Position numbers and translations under genes: made by a program. Shown piece after piece: positions 1,244 through 28,303 of a stretch of DNA of 28,303 nucleotides (the first letter of the stretch is position 1; the number at the start of each line of letters is the position of its first letter). The DNA is taken from the NCBI GenBank assembly GCA_032358255.1, contig JAULBX010028161.1:1-28303 (forward strand), given 5' to 3'. The notes beneath the pieces are model-generated. The model saw nothing but the letters and a program-made list of their open reading frames with translations. It did no database searches and was not told where the DNA came from. Source of the DNA: Heterotrichella gracilis. Lineage: Eukaryota; Sar; Xanthophyceae; Tribonematales; Xanthonemataceae.

Positions 1244-4200
1244 TCATACATGGGGCAAAAAGGCGCTCACAAGGAAATTCCCATCGGGCACCTTGACATG
1301 CCTGCACAGGGGCGAGGCGACGCCCGCGATGGAAAAAGCCGCGGACGGAATCGTGAAAATGCCATCCCCAGCCACAATCCCCGAGGCGCACGCGGCCACC
1401 AGCAGCTCCGCCCCCTCTGCATCAAAAACCCTCCATAGGGTTACCACCACGGACCCTAGGGTCATGTTCACAGCGATGGAGGGTCCAAGGAAGAAAGGGA
1501 TGGCGAAAGCCATGGGGATTGGCAGGAGCTTTGCCGGTCCCCGGGGCAGGAAATCGCGTCCCAGGTTGACTAAGATGGCCAGGGAGAAGAAGAGCGCGCA
1601 CAGCTGCAGGCAGTGGTCTGGGAGGGACGACAGGCCCTGCGTTCCTGCACAGCAAACCATTTAAGTTTCAGTCTACAAATACTCAGATGTGTTCTTCGAG
1701 CTGCCGCCACGGGAGGACAAGCCCTGTGTGCCTGCTACGGCACAAAAGGGCTTCAACTTAAACTGGGATTTCACAAGCTACAAAGAAATAAGATTGTTGG
1801 AAAACGACCAGTGTGCTGTGTGCTGCGGCAGGGATGGGGACGACGAGCCCTGTGTACCTGTTCAGAAAAACCTCCGTTTGAACTAAGTCAGCAAATGCTT
1901 TGAAGCATTACTTCAAGGCATGACAAGCCCTGCGGCACGAAAGGATTATATGCATTGTCTACCAACGAACGTAATTGGCTCCCTATCTTGTTTACTTGCT
2001 TTTGTTAAACTGCTCTTGGACTGGCCTTTGGACCGCATTGCGGCCTGCAGGTTGCAATTCCACAATGCCATGGCCACCACGAGTACCAAGCGACTCCCTG
2101 TGCTTGTGATGAACGCCCTCATCAGTGCATGTGGCGATTAGCGGCAGCCAAGATACCCAAATGAGAGGGGGGAAAACTCACGTACCCAAAATGCTCATGG
2201 CCCGGTACAGCGTTCCATAGGGCGCAGGGTAGGGCCCATGGGGGTCCCCGATGCCAAACGCCCTCCAGAAGATTTGGAATGTCAGGGGCCCCACCACGCT
2301 CCCAAAAACTGCCCCGATGACTTGGCTCACAAACATGGCACGGGGGGATGACAGCGTGAGGTAGCCCGTCTTGAAGTCCTGCATCAAGTCTGCTGCAGAC
2401 CCTGCAACCAGCAAGGATTTTGGTTCAGCATGGGTGTCAGCTGTCTCGTGTGAACCTTGACTCTGAATTTGTGAGTTTTTGGGGGCAAACCCGAAGTTCT
2501 CCCAGGCTTGCTCCCTGGGAGATCTGATTTTATTTTAATGTGAGCATGGGGTGACAGCCTGAGACAGCCCGTCTTGAAGTCCTGCATGAGGTGAGCTGCA
2601 GAGCCTGCAACAAGCATCAGTTCTGGGTCAGCATGACTGTTATCACAATGTCATATCTGATTTCTGCAACCTTGAACCTGTATCCTGTGAGTTTTTTTGA
2701 AGCAATACATATCCACCCAGGCCCGTTCACTCCCAACTCTGATCTCACAATTTAAAATGATAGTGTGAGGAAACATGCATTGCAGGGCTTGATTGGTAGA
2801 CGGACAGCCGCATGCCCGTGCGCTCAATGGCCTGCATGGTACACTCCCATGCACGCCTATGCAAACCTTCCGGTAGTGGCCAACAGCACCTCTATTTTGA
2901 TTTTAAAATGCACAACCAATTCAATAAGACTCTCATCTTATGTATCAGGGCGTTGGTTAAGGAAGAGACAAATTGAGACATGCACCCCTTGGAAACCCAC
3001 CGGTAGTGGCCAGCAGCACCCCGCGTAACCCCTGCCCCGCAATCACGCCCCCGTCCGCCCCAGCCAGGCCAAAAAGCCAAAGATACTCACCGGCAGTGGC
3101 TAGATACCCAGCACGCGACAGATCCCCAGCCCCAAAACCATGCCCCCATCCTCCCCAGTCCGGCATGCAGGGGTATACAAAACCTCTAAAACTATGAATA
3201 CCATGTGTTCATATGCAACTCACCGGTAGTGGCCAGCAGCACCCCGCAGATCCCCAGCCCAGCAATCACGCCCCCGTCTGCCCCCGCCCATGCCGTAGCT
3301 GGTGTTACTTTCCATGCATTTGTCGCGCGACAACGGGTCAAGCGATTGCTGCCACATTTGCGCAACCAGTGCAGGGCACTCTACACTCTCTTCACACAGA
3401 ACCCACACACCAACGTCGTAGTTCTGCAACCCACCGGTAGTGGCCAGCAGCACCCCGCATATCCCCAGCCCAGCAATCACGCCCCCATCCGCCCCCGCCC
3501 ACGCCGAAAAGGCAAAGATTCCCAGCTTGCCATACAGCCCTGCCATGTTCCAGTCCGTGAGGCCACAGCCGTAGGAGTTTGCCACAGCCAGCATGGGGGC
3601 CACCATGAAGGACACAAGCACGTAGTACCACCTGCGCGTGGAGAGAATGTCACATTTGTTATGGTCTACATCACAGAAATGACGAGAGGTTTAGGTGGGT
3701 GCAAAAATGTCCAGCGTGCAATAGAGCACTGCCGTGCATGCCATTTGTGATCCAGTTGGTGATGCCACAGCCGTAGGTGTTTGCCACAGCCAGCATTGGG
3801 GCCTCCAGAAACGACACGAGCACGTAGTTCCACTTGCGCGTGGAGTGGATATAGATATTTGTATCGATTCCATCATGGAAATCAGATACTTTGAGCAGAA
3901 TGTGCTACAGCTGTGTAAGTGTCATACCAGTCATACGGGTGGTTTCCAAACTGCTGCATGTTGCATAATGGTACCCAATTCCTACCTGATGAAAGGGTAC
4001 ATGAATGGCATGCTTGCAACATCGCACAGACGGCTAAACCCTAAACCCTAGCTCATCCCATGTGACAATGCTTCCTTACCTAATGTGGGGGTAGAGGAGC
4101 GGATAACTGCACAGCTTCTCGCACAGGAGAATAAATCCTAAACTTTTGCTCATCCCATCTGACAATATTTTGCTATGCTGCCTTACCTTATATGGAGGTA

Positions 4201-10340: not shown

Positions 10341-13300
10341 TCAGTATTGAATGACTTGCCGCTCCGCCACAAACTGGCCCGTGAGGCGCTGCGAGGGGGG
10401 CACCAGCGCCAGCCACAGCTCGGTGTCCGCACCCTCAAGAGGGCTTTTTGTCCCCCGCTGCGACGACATATCTGTCTTCACCCATCCCGGGCAGCATGCG
10501 TTGACCATGACCCCCTTGGGCTCCAGCTGAGCCGCTAGGATGCGGGTGTACTGGCTTGCGCACAGCTTTGAGATGCCGTACATGCTGCTGGGCCAACCTT
10601 CCTGAGCGTGCCTGCGGTGCAAAAAAATAAATTAAAGCATGACTTCTATTTCAATTTTGTACTCATTTTCATTACACTAGTGTACTGGCTTGCGCACAGC
10701 TTTGAGGTGTCGTACATGCTGCTAGGCCACCCTTCCTGAGCGTGCCGGTGGCCCAAAAAATAATTAAAATCACATTTTAAAAAAGTATTAAAATCACCAC
10801 TGTTAGTTTTCATTTTTGGTATTTTGTTTTATTGAAACTGGTACATTTCTTCAACCAGCATAACCGCTAGTATGCAGGCGTACTGGCGTGCGCACAGCTC
10901 CCTGCCGTTCAAGTACAGTAAAGCAAAGCATGTTGAATTCTGGAATAATTTGTCCCTTTTAAAAAGTATATACATGGGTGCATTCCCCACCCGTTCAGCT
11001 GCTTCATGCACCTTCATAACTACATCCACCAGCCCCTAGACCACCCACAAAAAAGGAAAAAAACAATGTATTGAACACATCAAACACCCACCTCCCCCTC
11101 TCAATGCCATCCACAAACTCCTCTGCCAGCTTCACCAGCTCCTCTTTGGACTGTGCAACAGCAAACCGCGCCCGCAGCGCATCGTCAGGGACTAGCTTCA
11201 GCAGGCCAGCCCTGCAGCACACGGTTAGGGTTTAGGTTTTAGAGGGCCGTGCCTGCAGCGCATCGTCAGGGACTAGCTTCAGCAGGCCAGCCCTGCAGCA
11301 CGCGTTGGGGATTTAGTGTTCGGGTTTTAGAGGGCCGTGCCTGCAGCACCTCGTCAGGGACTATTCGCAGCAGGCCAGCCCTGCACCACATGCTTAGGGT
11401 TTGGGGTGTAGATATTTAGGGTTTAGGGTTTTGAGGACCATGCCCGCAGCGCATCGTCAGGAACTATCCGCAGCAGGCCCGCCCTGCAGCACACGTGTAA
11501 GGGGTAGGGTTTAGAGGGCAGCGCATCGACAGGGACTATCCGCAGCAGACCTGCCCTGCAGCACACGTTTAAGGGGTAGGTTATTAAGGGCAGCGCATCG
11601 ACAGCGACTATCCGCAGCAGACCTGCCCTGCAGCACACGCTGACCACTAGGGTGTAGGGTGTAGGGTTTTGACAATCGCGCCCGCAGCGCATCATCCAAG
11701 ACCACGTGAAGCATGCTGCGCTGTTGCACAAGTTCACAGCTTGGAATACGGAAGTTGGGAGTCAGGGTTTGGATTTTGAAACCTAAGGTTTAGGAAGCAG
11801 GCCCCGCCCTGTTGCACACTTCTTAGGGTTTAAGCTTAGGCCCGACCTGCTGCCCACATTTTAGGGTTTGGGGTTTGGGCCTGACCTGCTGCACACGTTT
11901 AGGGTTAGGGTTTAAGGTTTAGAGTTCCGGCCCGACCTGCTGCACACGTTGACCACCCTTGCATTGGGGCTGAGGAGGGGCTTGAGGGCCTCGCACACCG
12001 CCATGGTCCCGTAGAAATTGACGCCCAATGTTGTGCGGGCCTCGGAGGGGCCAAATACGTTGCCTTTGTAGGCGAACCCTGGGGAGGGAAAGGGAGGGGG
12101 TTACATAAACTTGTAGGGCGATGGATACAGGTGCAAACTGCTCATCTGTGCTGGGCTGCTTCTATGCATGGGTACTCACTACCCTAAACCCTAAAACCCC
12201 GAACTGCACGCTGCTTCATGCACGGGTATACTCACTTCCCTACACCCTAATACCCTGATTTGTGCGCACCTGCATTGTTGACCAGGATAATGATGCTGCC
12301 CAGCTCGCTTGCGGCCCACCTCGCACATGGCAAAACTGACCCCAGTGGTGCACTACGAGCACAATCACTGGGACGACTACAGTTGATGACAACCCTGCCC
12401 CTCACTCAACCCACTAAAACCTAAGTCCTAAACCCTAACCCTTAAACCATACGCACCCGCGTTGTTGACCAGGATGGTGATGCTCCCCAGCTCGCTAGCG
12501 GCCCACTCCGCAAATGCCGCCACTGACTCTGGTTGGGCAATGTCCAGCTGTTTGAAGAACACGCTACCTGACCCGCTGCTGGCCCGGATCTCTTCTGCTG
12601 CTTTCTTGCCCAGATCAACTGCACACAGCGGGGGAAATACAAAATAAAACCTTAATATTAAAAAAGGACGAGTGAAATTCTTGTTGATTTCACACCCAGG
12701 TCCACTGCCCACAGCGAATGATCACCTTTGGGTTGTAAATGACCATCTATGCTTGCAGTCATGCATGCAAATGATCAAGCACTACATCTTTGGTTCAGGT
12801 ATGGCGCTGTGCTCTCCTCACCATTTCGTGCCGTGACCACTGTCTTGATGCCCAGCTTGGCAAGCTCCTCAGCGATGGTGTAGCCAATGCCCTTGTTGGC
12901 TGCACAGGGGGACATAACCAGGTCAGACCGATAGGTCAGGGGTTAGCGCAAGGCTATGGTGCAGCCAATGCCCTTGTTGGCTGCACAGGGGGACAATAAT
13001 CAGATCACGCGGATGGATCAGGGCCATGCACACTTGCAGGATAGGACCCCTGGTCACCAGAGTGACTTGTAGGCGCAACACACCTGCTACCTCTTTTTGT
13101 GCATTTCATCCTCATCTAGAAAAACAGGGTTACAGGTGCAGATGAGCTAATTCGGTCCTGGAGGTGCATAGCATAGAGCACCCGCTTGAACTGTTGGGTG
13201 TAACCTACGGCTACTTGAAGATACCCATCCCGAAGATGATATCGTAAGATATCCTGACTGCATACTGTAATTGTATGACAATTGAAGTTCAAGTTCAGGA

Positions 13301-17970: not shown

Positions 17971-20900
17971 ATGGTGCAGGTTAAACGCCACAAGCCCGAC
18001 TCAATGGAGGGACTCAGTTATGGCGGGGACCAAGCCCCGGCCAACCTCCCCACCACCACAGCTCCTGCCGCATACTACCAGCCTCCCCACCCCTTGAACC
18101 CCGCCCCAACCCCCACCGCCCCCCCCTCGTACCACCAACCTCAGCAGCAGGAGGGAGTGGCACCCCCCACTCTACCATGGCACAATGCTGCCAGCCAGCC
18201 AGTTTCGCAATACCCTCCTCAGGGTTTTGTGGAGCAGCAGCCCTACCCAGCAGTTGGTGGCCAAACGGCACCGCAATACCCTATCCAGGGGTCTGATTAC
18301 CACCCGCAGGTATCCACCTATGTAGCCCAGGCACTGTTTGCAGCCATTATGTACACCATAACATACATGCCTTTCTCCACCCATCCTATATCAAGCATGA
18401 AAGTTGAGAGTTAATGGCTCCAAGTAAGGGCCCCCTGGCTCTGCGCTGCCCAAATGTGCCCTACACTTGTTCATTGCATGTGGGAGCATGATTCCACTAC
18501 AAGATGAAACCCTAAAACCCTAAACCTACCTTCAAGCGCACCCAGCAATGCCCCACCTCCGCAATCCCCACCTCAACCACAACCCCGTCCGCAGGCACAG
18601 GCCAAACCCCACCCATGGGCCCAAGCACCACCCCCCGCCACCCACCACCCCCACCACCCACCACCCCTCCCACAGCCCTTCGGCGCGGCTGCCAGCACCC
18701 CACTGGAGGCGACAGACCCCAGCCCCACACCCCTGGGAATCGAACCCGCAATCTCAATGGCCAGCAGCCAATCCAACATGGAGACTCAGCCGACGATCGA
18801 CCCTGGGACCTCCACAGCCTTCAGGCAATTGAACCCCGGGTTTCCCCTGGGGATGGGGATCGAGCCCCGGCCATCCATGGCAAGCAGCCTGTCTACCCAA
18901 CCCACAGTGGCATCCACGTCTACCTGCCTGGATTTCGATGCCCTGGCTGCCGCTCCCTCGCTGGCGGTGTCTATGGTTTCAATGGGGGCCGAGGGCGATT
19001 TCACAGAGCAGGTGAAGAGCTCTGCCTGCGGTTTGCATTCATTAGGGAAACACGTTGTATAGCCATCATTTCTGTTAGAAGATATGAATAAGCGCCCTGG
19101 TAATACCATGCAATGCAGGCATCGATGCGTTCTTTTTCAACAGAGGGTTGGTGGCATTTTTATTACCACACACTCAAGTTTGTACAATATAAGTATAAAA
19201 TTAAAAAACCCGGAAAAGTAATTCTTGTTATTTACAGTGTTTTATATTGCATTTAATTCACGCAGGTGAAGGGGCCCAGGCGCAAGGTGTTTGTTTGGGA
19301 CCTGGATGAAACTCTCATCATCTTCCAGTCCCTGATCTCGGGCCAATTTGCCTCGGCCAATGGGGGCGGGGGCTTGGTAGAGCGCGGCCAATCGCTGGGT
19401 GACAGGTGGCAACACATCGTGCTGGACATATGTGACCAGCACTTTTTCTTCGACAAGGTGCGGTGGGGCCATCCGTGTGTTTATATAAATTGAGTAGTGG
19501 GTTTGTTCACTGGCATTTCTCTTATACATCCCTTTCTGTGGACACTGCGCTCGCTAAACAATCACCAGAACGCGTGTATGATCAGATGCGCTATAACAAA
19601 CCAATGACTGAAAGATCAGAGACTAACGGATGCTCCTAATTAATTGACTCACTGATTATACCCCCTGTACGCAGATTGAGGATTACGATCAAACGCACCT
19701 GGATGACCTCCAATCATACGACGACCATGCTGATCTGGCGGGCTACGACTTTGCATCGGATGGCTTTGTGGAGCCCTCTGGTCCCCTGTCCTTGCGCCAG
19801 CTGGCGTACCGCTTCAGGCACATCGCACAGCTCTACGAGAGAGGTGCGCATTTCACCCAATTTGATTAGATGAATAGCCAGCAAATTAATAAATATGAAC
19901 GTTGAATAGAAATGCAAAATTTTAATATCTAAGACTTGAGTCAGACACATCCCACAGCTCTACGAGAGACGTGCGCGGTTTTTAATAAATGAAATGTATG
20001 ATAGAAATAGGTGAGGGACACTGATAAGGGAAAATAGCTTTGAATTGGATGGCATAGCGAGACCTTCTTGTTCCCAATCACGACACATGGCACAGCTCCA
20101 CATACGAGGAGCGCACTTTGATGTATGAAAAAGAAATCCCACACCTTACAACAAGCATGTGGAGAAACCCTGAATTCTTCACCCTAAAGCCTTGTATTTG
20201 CCTGTGCGGGGCTGGGTGGCATGGCCAGTGCGCAGCAGCAGGCAGAGGTCCGACGCCTGTTCCACACCCTAATCTGCAAACCTTAAACCCTTGTATCCAG
20301 CTGTGCAGGGCTGGGTGGCATGGCTAGCGCGCAGCAGCATGCAGAGAAACCCTTGTAATTTAAACTTGTAAACCCTAAACATCTAACACCAACCCGAAAT
20401 TCCCTGTGCAGGGCTGAATGGCATGGCCAGTGCGCAGCAGCAGGCAGAGGTTCGTGACCTGTTCCACTCAACGGATCAGATGGTGGGGGGCTGGCTGTCA
20501 CATGCAGGTATGTCTTGGGTTTCAGGGTTTTAAGGCTAAGGGTTTGTTGTCTTGTGTGTGTGGGAGGGGTGGGTGGGTGGGTGGCTATCCCCCTATCACA
20601 TGCAGATGGGTGCAGGGGGGGAGCACATGCACGCGGGGAGGCACCCTTGGCCACTGCTGTTGCATCCCATCACCCCCACATTAGAACCATGTACAATCTG
20701 GGGGTGGGGGCTGGGGGGGATGTTTGCCGCAACATTTTGCTATTGCACAGCGTTCCCTCTGCCCGCTGTGTCCTCACTGTGGGATTGCACTACGGCTGCT
20801 GGTTGTCCGGATCCGCACTGGCACCGTGCCCCACACCCTCCCCACCACAAGGACTGGTATCAGCGTAATACATCATGTTTTATATAGTTATGATGCATTA

Positions 20901-27711: not shown

Positions 27712-28040
27712 ATAGGGCCTGCCAAAGACGGGATGGAATGCGGTAGGTCACCCTTGCCCTTGTGCTGGCGCCCCCCCATCTGTCACAGCTGAAGAGAGGG
27801 GCATGTCGCCGCCGCGCGCTTCTGAGCGGGTAATGGGCATTGTGTCCTACATATGAGTAACGGAGCAACGTCAGACATGGCATGTCCTATGGGACTGCTG
27901 CCCCGACATTTATCCGACATGTAGCACGGCGCAGCACGCATGCCGGGGCCTCAATGTTCCCACAGCGTGGTCATATCGCATGACTGCCTCGCCATGGCCC
28001 ACGGCGCAGGCCCCAAGGCACAGCCATTAAATACCCAACA
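27712..28040. other. Upstream flank of the 247-aa frame
   Basis: No gene or RNA was recognised. It lies between the ATG of the minus-strand frame and the minisatellite and would hold that frame's promoter if it is expressed. Confidence 0.4.
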
Positions 28041-28303
28041 CGTTCAGGGGTGTGCCATGCAGGGTCCCACACCAAACAGCTGGAACAGGTAAGCTGGTTC
28101 AAGGGTGCGCCCCGCAGGGTCTGGCACCAAACAGCTGGATCACCCCAGCAGGTTCAAGGGTGCACCCCGCAGGGTCTGGCACCAAACAGCTGGATCACCC
28201 CAGCAGGTTCAAGGGTGCACCCCGCGGGGTCTGGCACCAAACAGCTGGATCACCCCAGCAGGTTCAAGGGTGCACCCCGCAGGGTCTGGCACCAAACAGC
28301 TGG
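28041..28303 (+). repeat. 55-bp minisatellite, at least 4.8 copies, truncated by the window edge
   Basis: Units start at 28041, 28096, 28151, 28206 and 28261, each exactly 55 bp apart. The consensus runs GGTTCAAGGGTGCACCCCGC, AGGGTCTGGCACCAAACAGC, TGGATCACCCCAGCA. The leftmost unit is clearly diverged, the second has a few changes, and the remaining three are nearly identical, so the array is homogenising or expanding rightward. The period is not a multiple of three, so it is unlikely to be coding. Confidence 0.95.

Follow-up and report, generated by a model that had tools for sequence, protein, structure and literature searches.

Human introns have reportedly been traced to tandem arrays by Zhuo et al. 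(2007, as cited in PMC3488318), which is a likeness to the intron described here. For a claim of intron gain, strong evidence is held to require both the source sequence and the phylogeny (the criterion of Logsdon et al., as given in PMC4974935). In ATP2A1, as that paper recounts it (Hellsten 2011, in PMC4974935), the two splice sites go back to a duplicated proto-splice site, and the peptide was left unchanged. Two fission-yeast introns, in SPOG_01682 and SOCG_00815, are made of 24-nt tandem repeats (PMC3629103); in each, an exon segment carrying the proto-splice site AGGC is repeated several times in tandem, with no filler between the units, and both have comparative and EST support. In a potato RdRp intron, as outlined in PMC4974935, a single duplication crosses the intron-exon boundary and a cryptic donor is used, with no array. 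The novel introns of Drosophila described in PMC2891723 rest on 12 aligned genomes and on a 15-position test of donor-acceptor likeness in which a score of 3.75 is expected at random.

The intron considered here, intron 4 of an SDR gene, resembles that of ATP2A1 in having splice sites that look like two copies of one proto-splice site and in leaving the peptide unchanged, but it differs in its eleven units, its telomere-like spacers and its readable order of duplication, and the one empty site found is that of a distant locus, L195. It shares with the fission-yeast introns the several tandem exon-segment copies with a proto-splice site, whereas its units are spaced by 72-103 nt with telomere-like filler between them. 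The boundary-crossing duplication of the potato intron recurs in other introns of this genome, and on the Drosophila test intron 4 scores 12. What is new in intron 4 is therefore the larger number and length of the units, the telomere-like spacers and the readable order, the kind of intron itself being known. The first-pass annotation had regarded cases with a visible array as uncommon; this is so, although the two fission-yeast introns (PMC3629103) mean that they are not unknown.

The SDR gene and its fourth intron

The window, i.e., the whole stretch of DNA that was analysed, is a contig of 28,303 bp from an assembly of 68.5 Mb in 903 contigs. Intron 4 lies in a minus-strand SDR gene of carbonyl-reductase-like type, whose protein has its best matches in green algae (Myrmecia 57%, Botryococcus 59% and Trebouxia 58% identity). 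Spliced alignment places five introns in the gene, identically with each of three green-algal homologues, and recovers the join of exon 4 to exon 5 with all three. Most homologue alignments among those listed run without a gap across NVCSR/AGLL (the slash marks the junction), and splicing intron 4 out yields the homologue peptide without insertion. The range 11092..12078 given in the first-pass annotation comprises exon 4, intron 4 and exon 5:

11937..12078, minus strand: SDR exon 4, 3' end ...GTGGTCAACGTGTGCAGCAG (spliced alignment, three homologues)
11212..11936, minus strand: SDR intron 4, 725 nt, GT-AG (spliced alignment)
11092..11211, minus strand: SDR exon 5, the array's master copy, which also supplies the downstream half of unit 10 (spliced alignment)

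Units of the exon 4-exon 5 junction within intron 4

Intron 4 contains nine internal copies of the spliced exon 4-exon 5 junction, making eleven units together with the real donor and acceptor. Their junctions lie at window positions 11936 (donor), 11885, 11846, 11808, 11720 and 11627 for units 0-5, and at 11555, 11483, 11380, 11292 and 11211 (acceptor) for units 6-10. When the junction is aligned to the intron, scores of 29.5 to 53 are obtained for six copies, compared with at most 19.5 in 300 dinucleotide-shuffled introns. The two donor-side alignments, at 18 and 19, exceed the 95% point (15.0) and stay below the shuffled maximum, and the second of them merges two units. The original estimate of about ten junction copies is thus borne out by nine internal ones, six of which exceed all 300 shuffles. 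The units are as follows:

11923..11936, minus strand: unit 0, the real donor GTCGGGCC..., one base off the GGCGGGCC of unit 7
11878..11899, minus strand: unit 1, donor-type copy, AACGTGTGCAGCAG followed across the junction by GTCAGGCC, score 18
11839..11860, minus strand: unit 2, donor-type copy, AATGTGGGCAGCAG followed across the junction by GTCGGGCC, alignment merging with unit 3
11796..11820, minus strand: unit 3, GGCGGGGCCTGC directly after the junction
11674..11737, minus strand: unit 4, exon 4 (14/17) joined to exon 5, score 29.5
11590..11647, minus strand: unit 5, exon 4 (18/20) joined to exon 5, ancestral Ile, score 40
11518..11569, minus strand: unit 6, ancestral Ile retained, score 38
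11437..11496, minus strand: unit 7, ancestral Ile retained, score 44
11335..11390, minus strand: unit 8, ancestral Ile retained, score 36
11247..11307, minus strand: unit 9, the youngest, Leu codon as in exon 5, score 53
11212..11225, minus strand: unit 10, upstream half, intron end CGTGTGCTGCAG with the real acceptor

Both sides of the joined exons are matched by the units. Units 4-9 match 38-52 nt of the exon 5 side and 10-20 nt of the exon 4 side, with the longest reach into exon 4 in units 4 and 5, and in units 1-3 the match mainly covers the final 12 nt of exon 4 plus 8-12 nt immediately past the junction. At positions -20 to -13, unit 5 shares 7/8 with exon 4 and 2/8 with the native acceptor flank, unit 4 shares 5/8 and 3/8, respectively, and the other seven internal units share 1 to 4 of 8 with exon 4, their upstream flank being mostly telomere-like. 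Units 5, 6 and 7, spaced by 72 nt, stand in one frame and encode VCCRAGLLRIV-type peptides, which agrees with the in-frame VCCRAGLL-type residues noticed at first.

The units account for 448 nt and CCCTAAA-like spacer for 212 nt, together 660 of the 725 nt of the intron, leaving 65 nt that belong to neither. The spacers had been described as TTAGGG-like; their repeat is instead the heptamer CCCTAAA or, on the other strand, TTTAGGG, and this heptamer (at most one mismatch) makes up a fraction of 0.32 of intron 4 compared with 0.05 after shuffling. The same heptamers, which lie in introns and between genes in both orientations, amount to 103 counted words in the 28.3 kb window, and at least one exact TTTAGGG or CCCTAAA is present in 31 of 91 sampled introns, its share being higher in intron than in exon. 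A role of CCCTAAA as branch point was considered and set aside, CTAAAC being found in 0.06 of the branch windows and 0.00 of the interior windows, too few cases to build on.

Repeats within the intron body are recognised in algae as a sign of intron gain, and it could be imagined that an introner or other mobile element inserted intron 4. We hold this to be scarcely credible, since the units are copies of the SDR gene's own exons; moreover, a genome search for dispersed copies of intron 4, which skips simple repeats and very common words, returned only three matches outside the locus, of 39-40 nt and all in the telomere-like part. A very improbable reading is also that the repeated acceptors regulate expression by sending a share of the transcripts into stop codons. 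All ten internal acceptors tested (10/10), as well as intron retention, do lead to a stop codon, but most of these stops fall within telomere-like spacer, where they are to be expected in any case, the units decay with distance from exon 5, and similar copies are present in many unrelated genes.

The units also differ in how closely they follow exon 5, whose peptide reads RAGLLKLVPDD with Leu after the Lys. At this position 29 of the 36 nearest homologues carry Ile and none (0/36) carries Leu, while all 120 listed homologues give 42 Ile and 22 Leu. Units 5-8 encode Ile, and unit 9, which adjoins exon 5, has exon 5's own codons with Leu. Scored over 46 nt against exon 5, units 9, 8, 7, 6 and 5 have an identity of 44, 38, 39, 33 and 31, respectively, with unit 4 left out of this scoring for its indel. 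From the Ile/Leu pattern and the identity gradient, the units are read as successive fossils of exon 5, which were copied from it at different times and unit 9 latest. A unit tree gave good support only to the grouping of unit 5 with unit 6, the sequences being too short for firmness.

Splice-site likeness and exon-edge copies across the genome

When donor and acceptor are compared in register over -12..+8, those of intron 4 are equal at 17 of 20 positions, a value reached by none of 13,110 mismatched donor-acceptor pairs (maximum 16) drawn from 115 introns, among which the next own pair has 12. At the 15 positions that Lehmann et al. applied to Drosophila, intron 4 scores 12/15, the permuted maximum is 11 (0/13,110 reach 12) and the next own pair has 8. 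The -12..+8 window is one of five that were tried on the first 91 introns. Among 8,190 permuted pairs from that set, the value of intron 4 is reached by none over -12..-1 and over -12..+8, by 12 over -20..+16, by 25 over -20..-1 and by 722 over 0..+13 alone, and by 10 when donor and acceptor are aligned locally; OPT intron 1 equals the score of intron 4 in both -20 windows. That donor and acceptor are members of one array, as first proposed, is upheld by a likeness beyond every mismatched pair over -12..+8 and at the Lehmann positions, and less strongly elsewhere. Over -12..+8 the mean likeness in the 91 introns is 7.12 for own pairs and 6.95 for permuted ones, and since own pairs are barely above permuted ones, alike ends are no general property of the sampled introns.

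The genes sampled for introns form a convenience sample. The first sample consists of 91 introns (16 dropped) from SDR, OPT, eight CCT/Cpn60 stretches, which are fewer than the contigs matched, and sixteen kinesin genes. The second consists of 24 introns from twelve SNF2-type genes (4 of 28 dropped); of fifteen SNF2 stretches, C44, C75 and C613 were left out, and anchors with stop codons were omitted. In both samples a length or micro-exon filter decided what was dropped. Models of SDR and OPT were built from outside homologues, and those of CCT, kinesin and SNF2 from the genome's own domain matches; in the SNF2 and kinesin genes some introns end in weak acceptors, and for OPT the homologues disagree on some of the exon ends.

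A direct copy of an intron's own exon edge, scoring above a threshold taken as the 99.9% point in a set of 15,788 cross-gene comparisons, was found in 16 of 91 introns in the first sample (0.17 expected) and, with the same threshold, in 10 of 24 in the second, where 18/1,036 cross-gene comparisons also pass, a higher share than in the first, perhaps owing to related genes. Taken together, 26 of 115 introns carry copies of their own exon edges, intron 4 among them. The positives are unevenly placed: in the first sample they include 7 of the 14 introns within the window and 9 of 77 elsewhere, and over both samples 19 of the 101 introns outside the window; positives number four among the kinesin introns and zero among the introns tested from contigs C152, C101, C547, C498 and C134. 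Inverted copies above the threshold number 0 among 182 edges of the first sample and 0 among 48 of the second, one being equal to it, and exon edges compared with other introns of the same gene gave 0/592 in the first sample. Positive introns have a median length of 428 nt, compared with 233 nt for the others. Direct duplication across exon-intron boundaries is thus common among the sampled introns and lengthens them, and it could be neutral as long as splicing takes place at the outermost donor and acceptor. Literature searches confined to open-licence PMC papers and a limited set of terms brought up no account of exon-edge copies as a common feature of green-algal introns.

Two examples come from other genes of the window. 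In the EYA-like phosphatase gene (19814-20467, plus strand), an intron whose exon edges were read by eye has two donor-side and two acceptor-side edge copies; PDB EYA sequences (EYA2) match the hand-joined protein, for which a Pfam search gave no match. In the OPT/YSL-type transporter (2402-3434, minus strand), intron 8 holds the upstream exon edge in four copies and the downstream one in a single copy.

Each of the 15 other positives of the first sample (15/15) has a best copy that runs over the splice site into native intron, by at least 10 nt in 13, although the boundary-crossing match of CCT_C487 intron 5 is G-rich and weak. This bears on an improbable account of the array, in which reverse-transcribed copies of the mRNA seam were patched into a break at or in intron 4 and then amplified. 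Units 4 and 5 join the exons without intron sequence, as it would predict, and telomere-like filler is known from the repair of breaks. The units, however, reach at most 20 nt into exon 4 and 52 nt into exon 5, and the crossing of the splice site in those 15 positives argues for DNA or unspliced RNA as the source. Copies that span the junction were also looked for in other introns under a permissive rule, which seven copies of SDR intron 4 pass with scores up to 49; 4 of 115 introns pass it, but so do 34 of 896 null pairings, and the rule is therefore uninformative outside SDR intron 4.

Origin and age of intron 4

Boundary duplication is widespread in this genome, and the array by itself is therefore no proof of intron gain. 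An old intron may have received a new filling, with boundary duplications at both ends and a likeness of donor and acceptor due to chance or to later homogenisation. Exon-edge copies are indeed frequent in introns with unlike splice sites (25 others of the 115, own-pair likeness at most 12/20), the donor-type copies of intron 4 lie near its donor and the acceptor-type ones near its acceptor, as in the EYA intron, and the likeness on the exon 5 side alone is unremarkable. We nevertheless consider an old intron unlikely, given that 17/20 in register is matched by 0/13,110 permuted pairs, that exon 4 runs straight into exon 5 in units 4 and 5, and that only 65 of the 725 nt of intron 4 are left unexplained. 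In two internal units the match extends over 17-20 nt of exon 4, which would follow from a former state with exons 4 and 5 contiguous. These units, together with the alike ends, set intron 4 apart from the other introns with exon-edge copies.

The paired splice sites point to gain, and the best explanation, which we regard as probable, is the birth of intron 4 from duplicated coding DNA containing AG/G, followed by growth through boundary duplication. Coding DNA with an AG/G site (...GTGTGCAGCAG joined to GGCGGGCC...), in which no prior intron would have been present, would have been duplicated where it stood. A single base change (G>T at +2) would have produced the GT donor in the upstream copy, and the CAG of the downstream copy would have become the acceptor. 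Further direct duplications of the acceptor and the start of exon 5, in whatever manner they arose, would then have added units, the newest beside exon 5, with telomere-like CCCTAAA DNA being placed between them during growth. Such growth could be tolerated, given that the old mRNA is still obtained by splicing between the outermost donor and acceptor, presumably the only sites used. Boundary duplication of this kind also enlarges ordinary introns of this genome. The proposal of gain by AG/G tandem duplication is thus partly supported, with a source sequence, alike ends and exon-joining units in its favour.

For the age of the intron, the corresponding site could be viewed in L195, a eukaryotic-looking 7.6-kb contig in a Verrucomicrobiaceae MAG bin that came from a scan of prokaryote contigs. 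As modelled, its carbonyl-reductase gene contains five short introns, of which some have weak acceptors, and it has a single uninterrupted exon over VINVSSTAG, the site of intron 4. Among the listed homologues, the best match to its protein has 45.5% identity; given this distance, the uninterrupted exon is only consistent with gain. Genome and viral scans gave no other usable orthologue locus among the eight examined of 160. SDR paralogues were set aside for the intron site, since they belong to other subfamilies and the eukaryote-like ones lack a sound alignment there. Contigs C1, C111 and C222, which are AT-rich (GC 0.34-0.40) and carry long SDR frames, are probably bacterial.

In most new introns the source is obscured by sequence decay, whereas in intron 4 the source, the order of events and an ancestral codon are still legible. 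With boundary duplication in 26 of 115 introns, intron growth and birth could be counted within one genome, in place of arguments from isolated cases. We put forward tentatively that short direct duplications, arising steadily at exon-intron boundaries in connection with telomere-like DNA, account for a considerable share of intron length here and occasionally make a new intron on hitting an AG/G within an exon. If this is true, intron 4 would be a case whose history can be read, and a single genome could serve to measure the rates of both growth and birth.

Apart from these introns, an Rfam search gave no matches in the window, and positions 28034-28303, at the contig end, hold a tandem array of 55-bp units in 4.9 copies.
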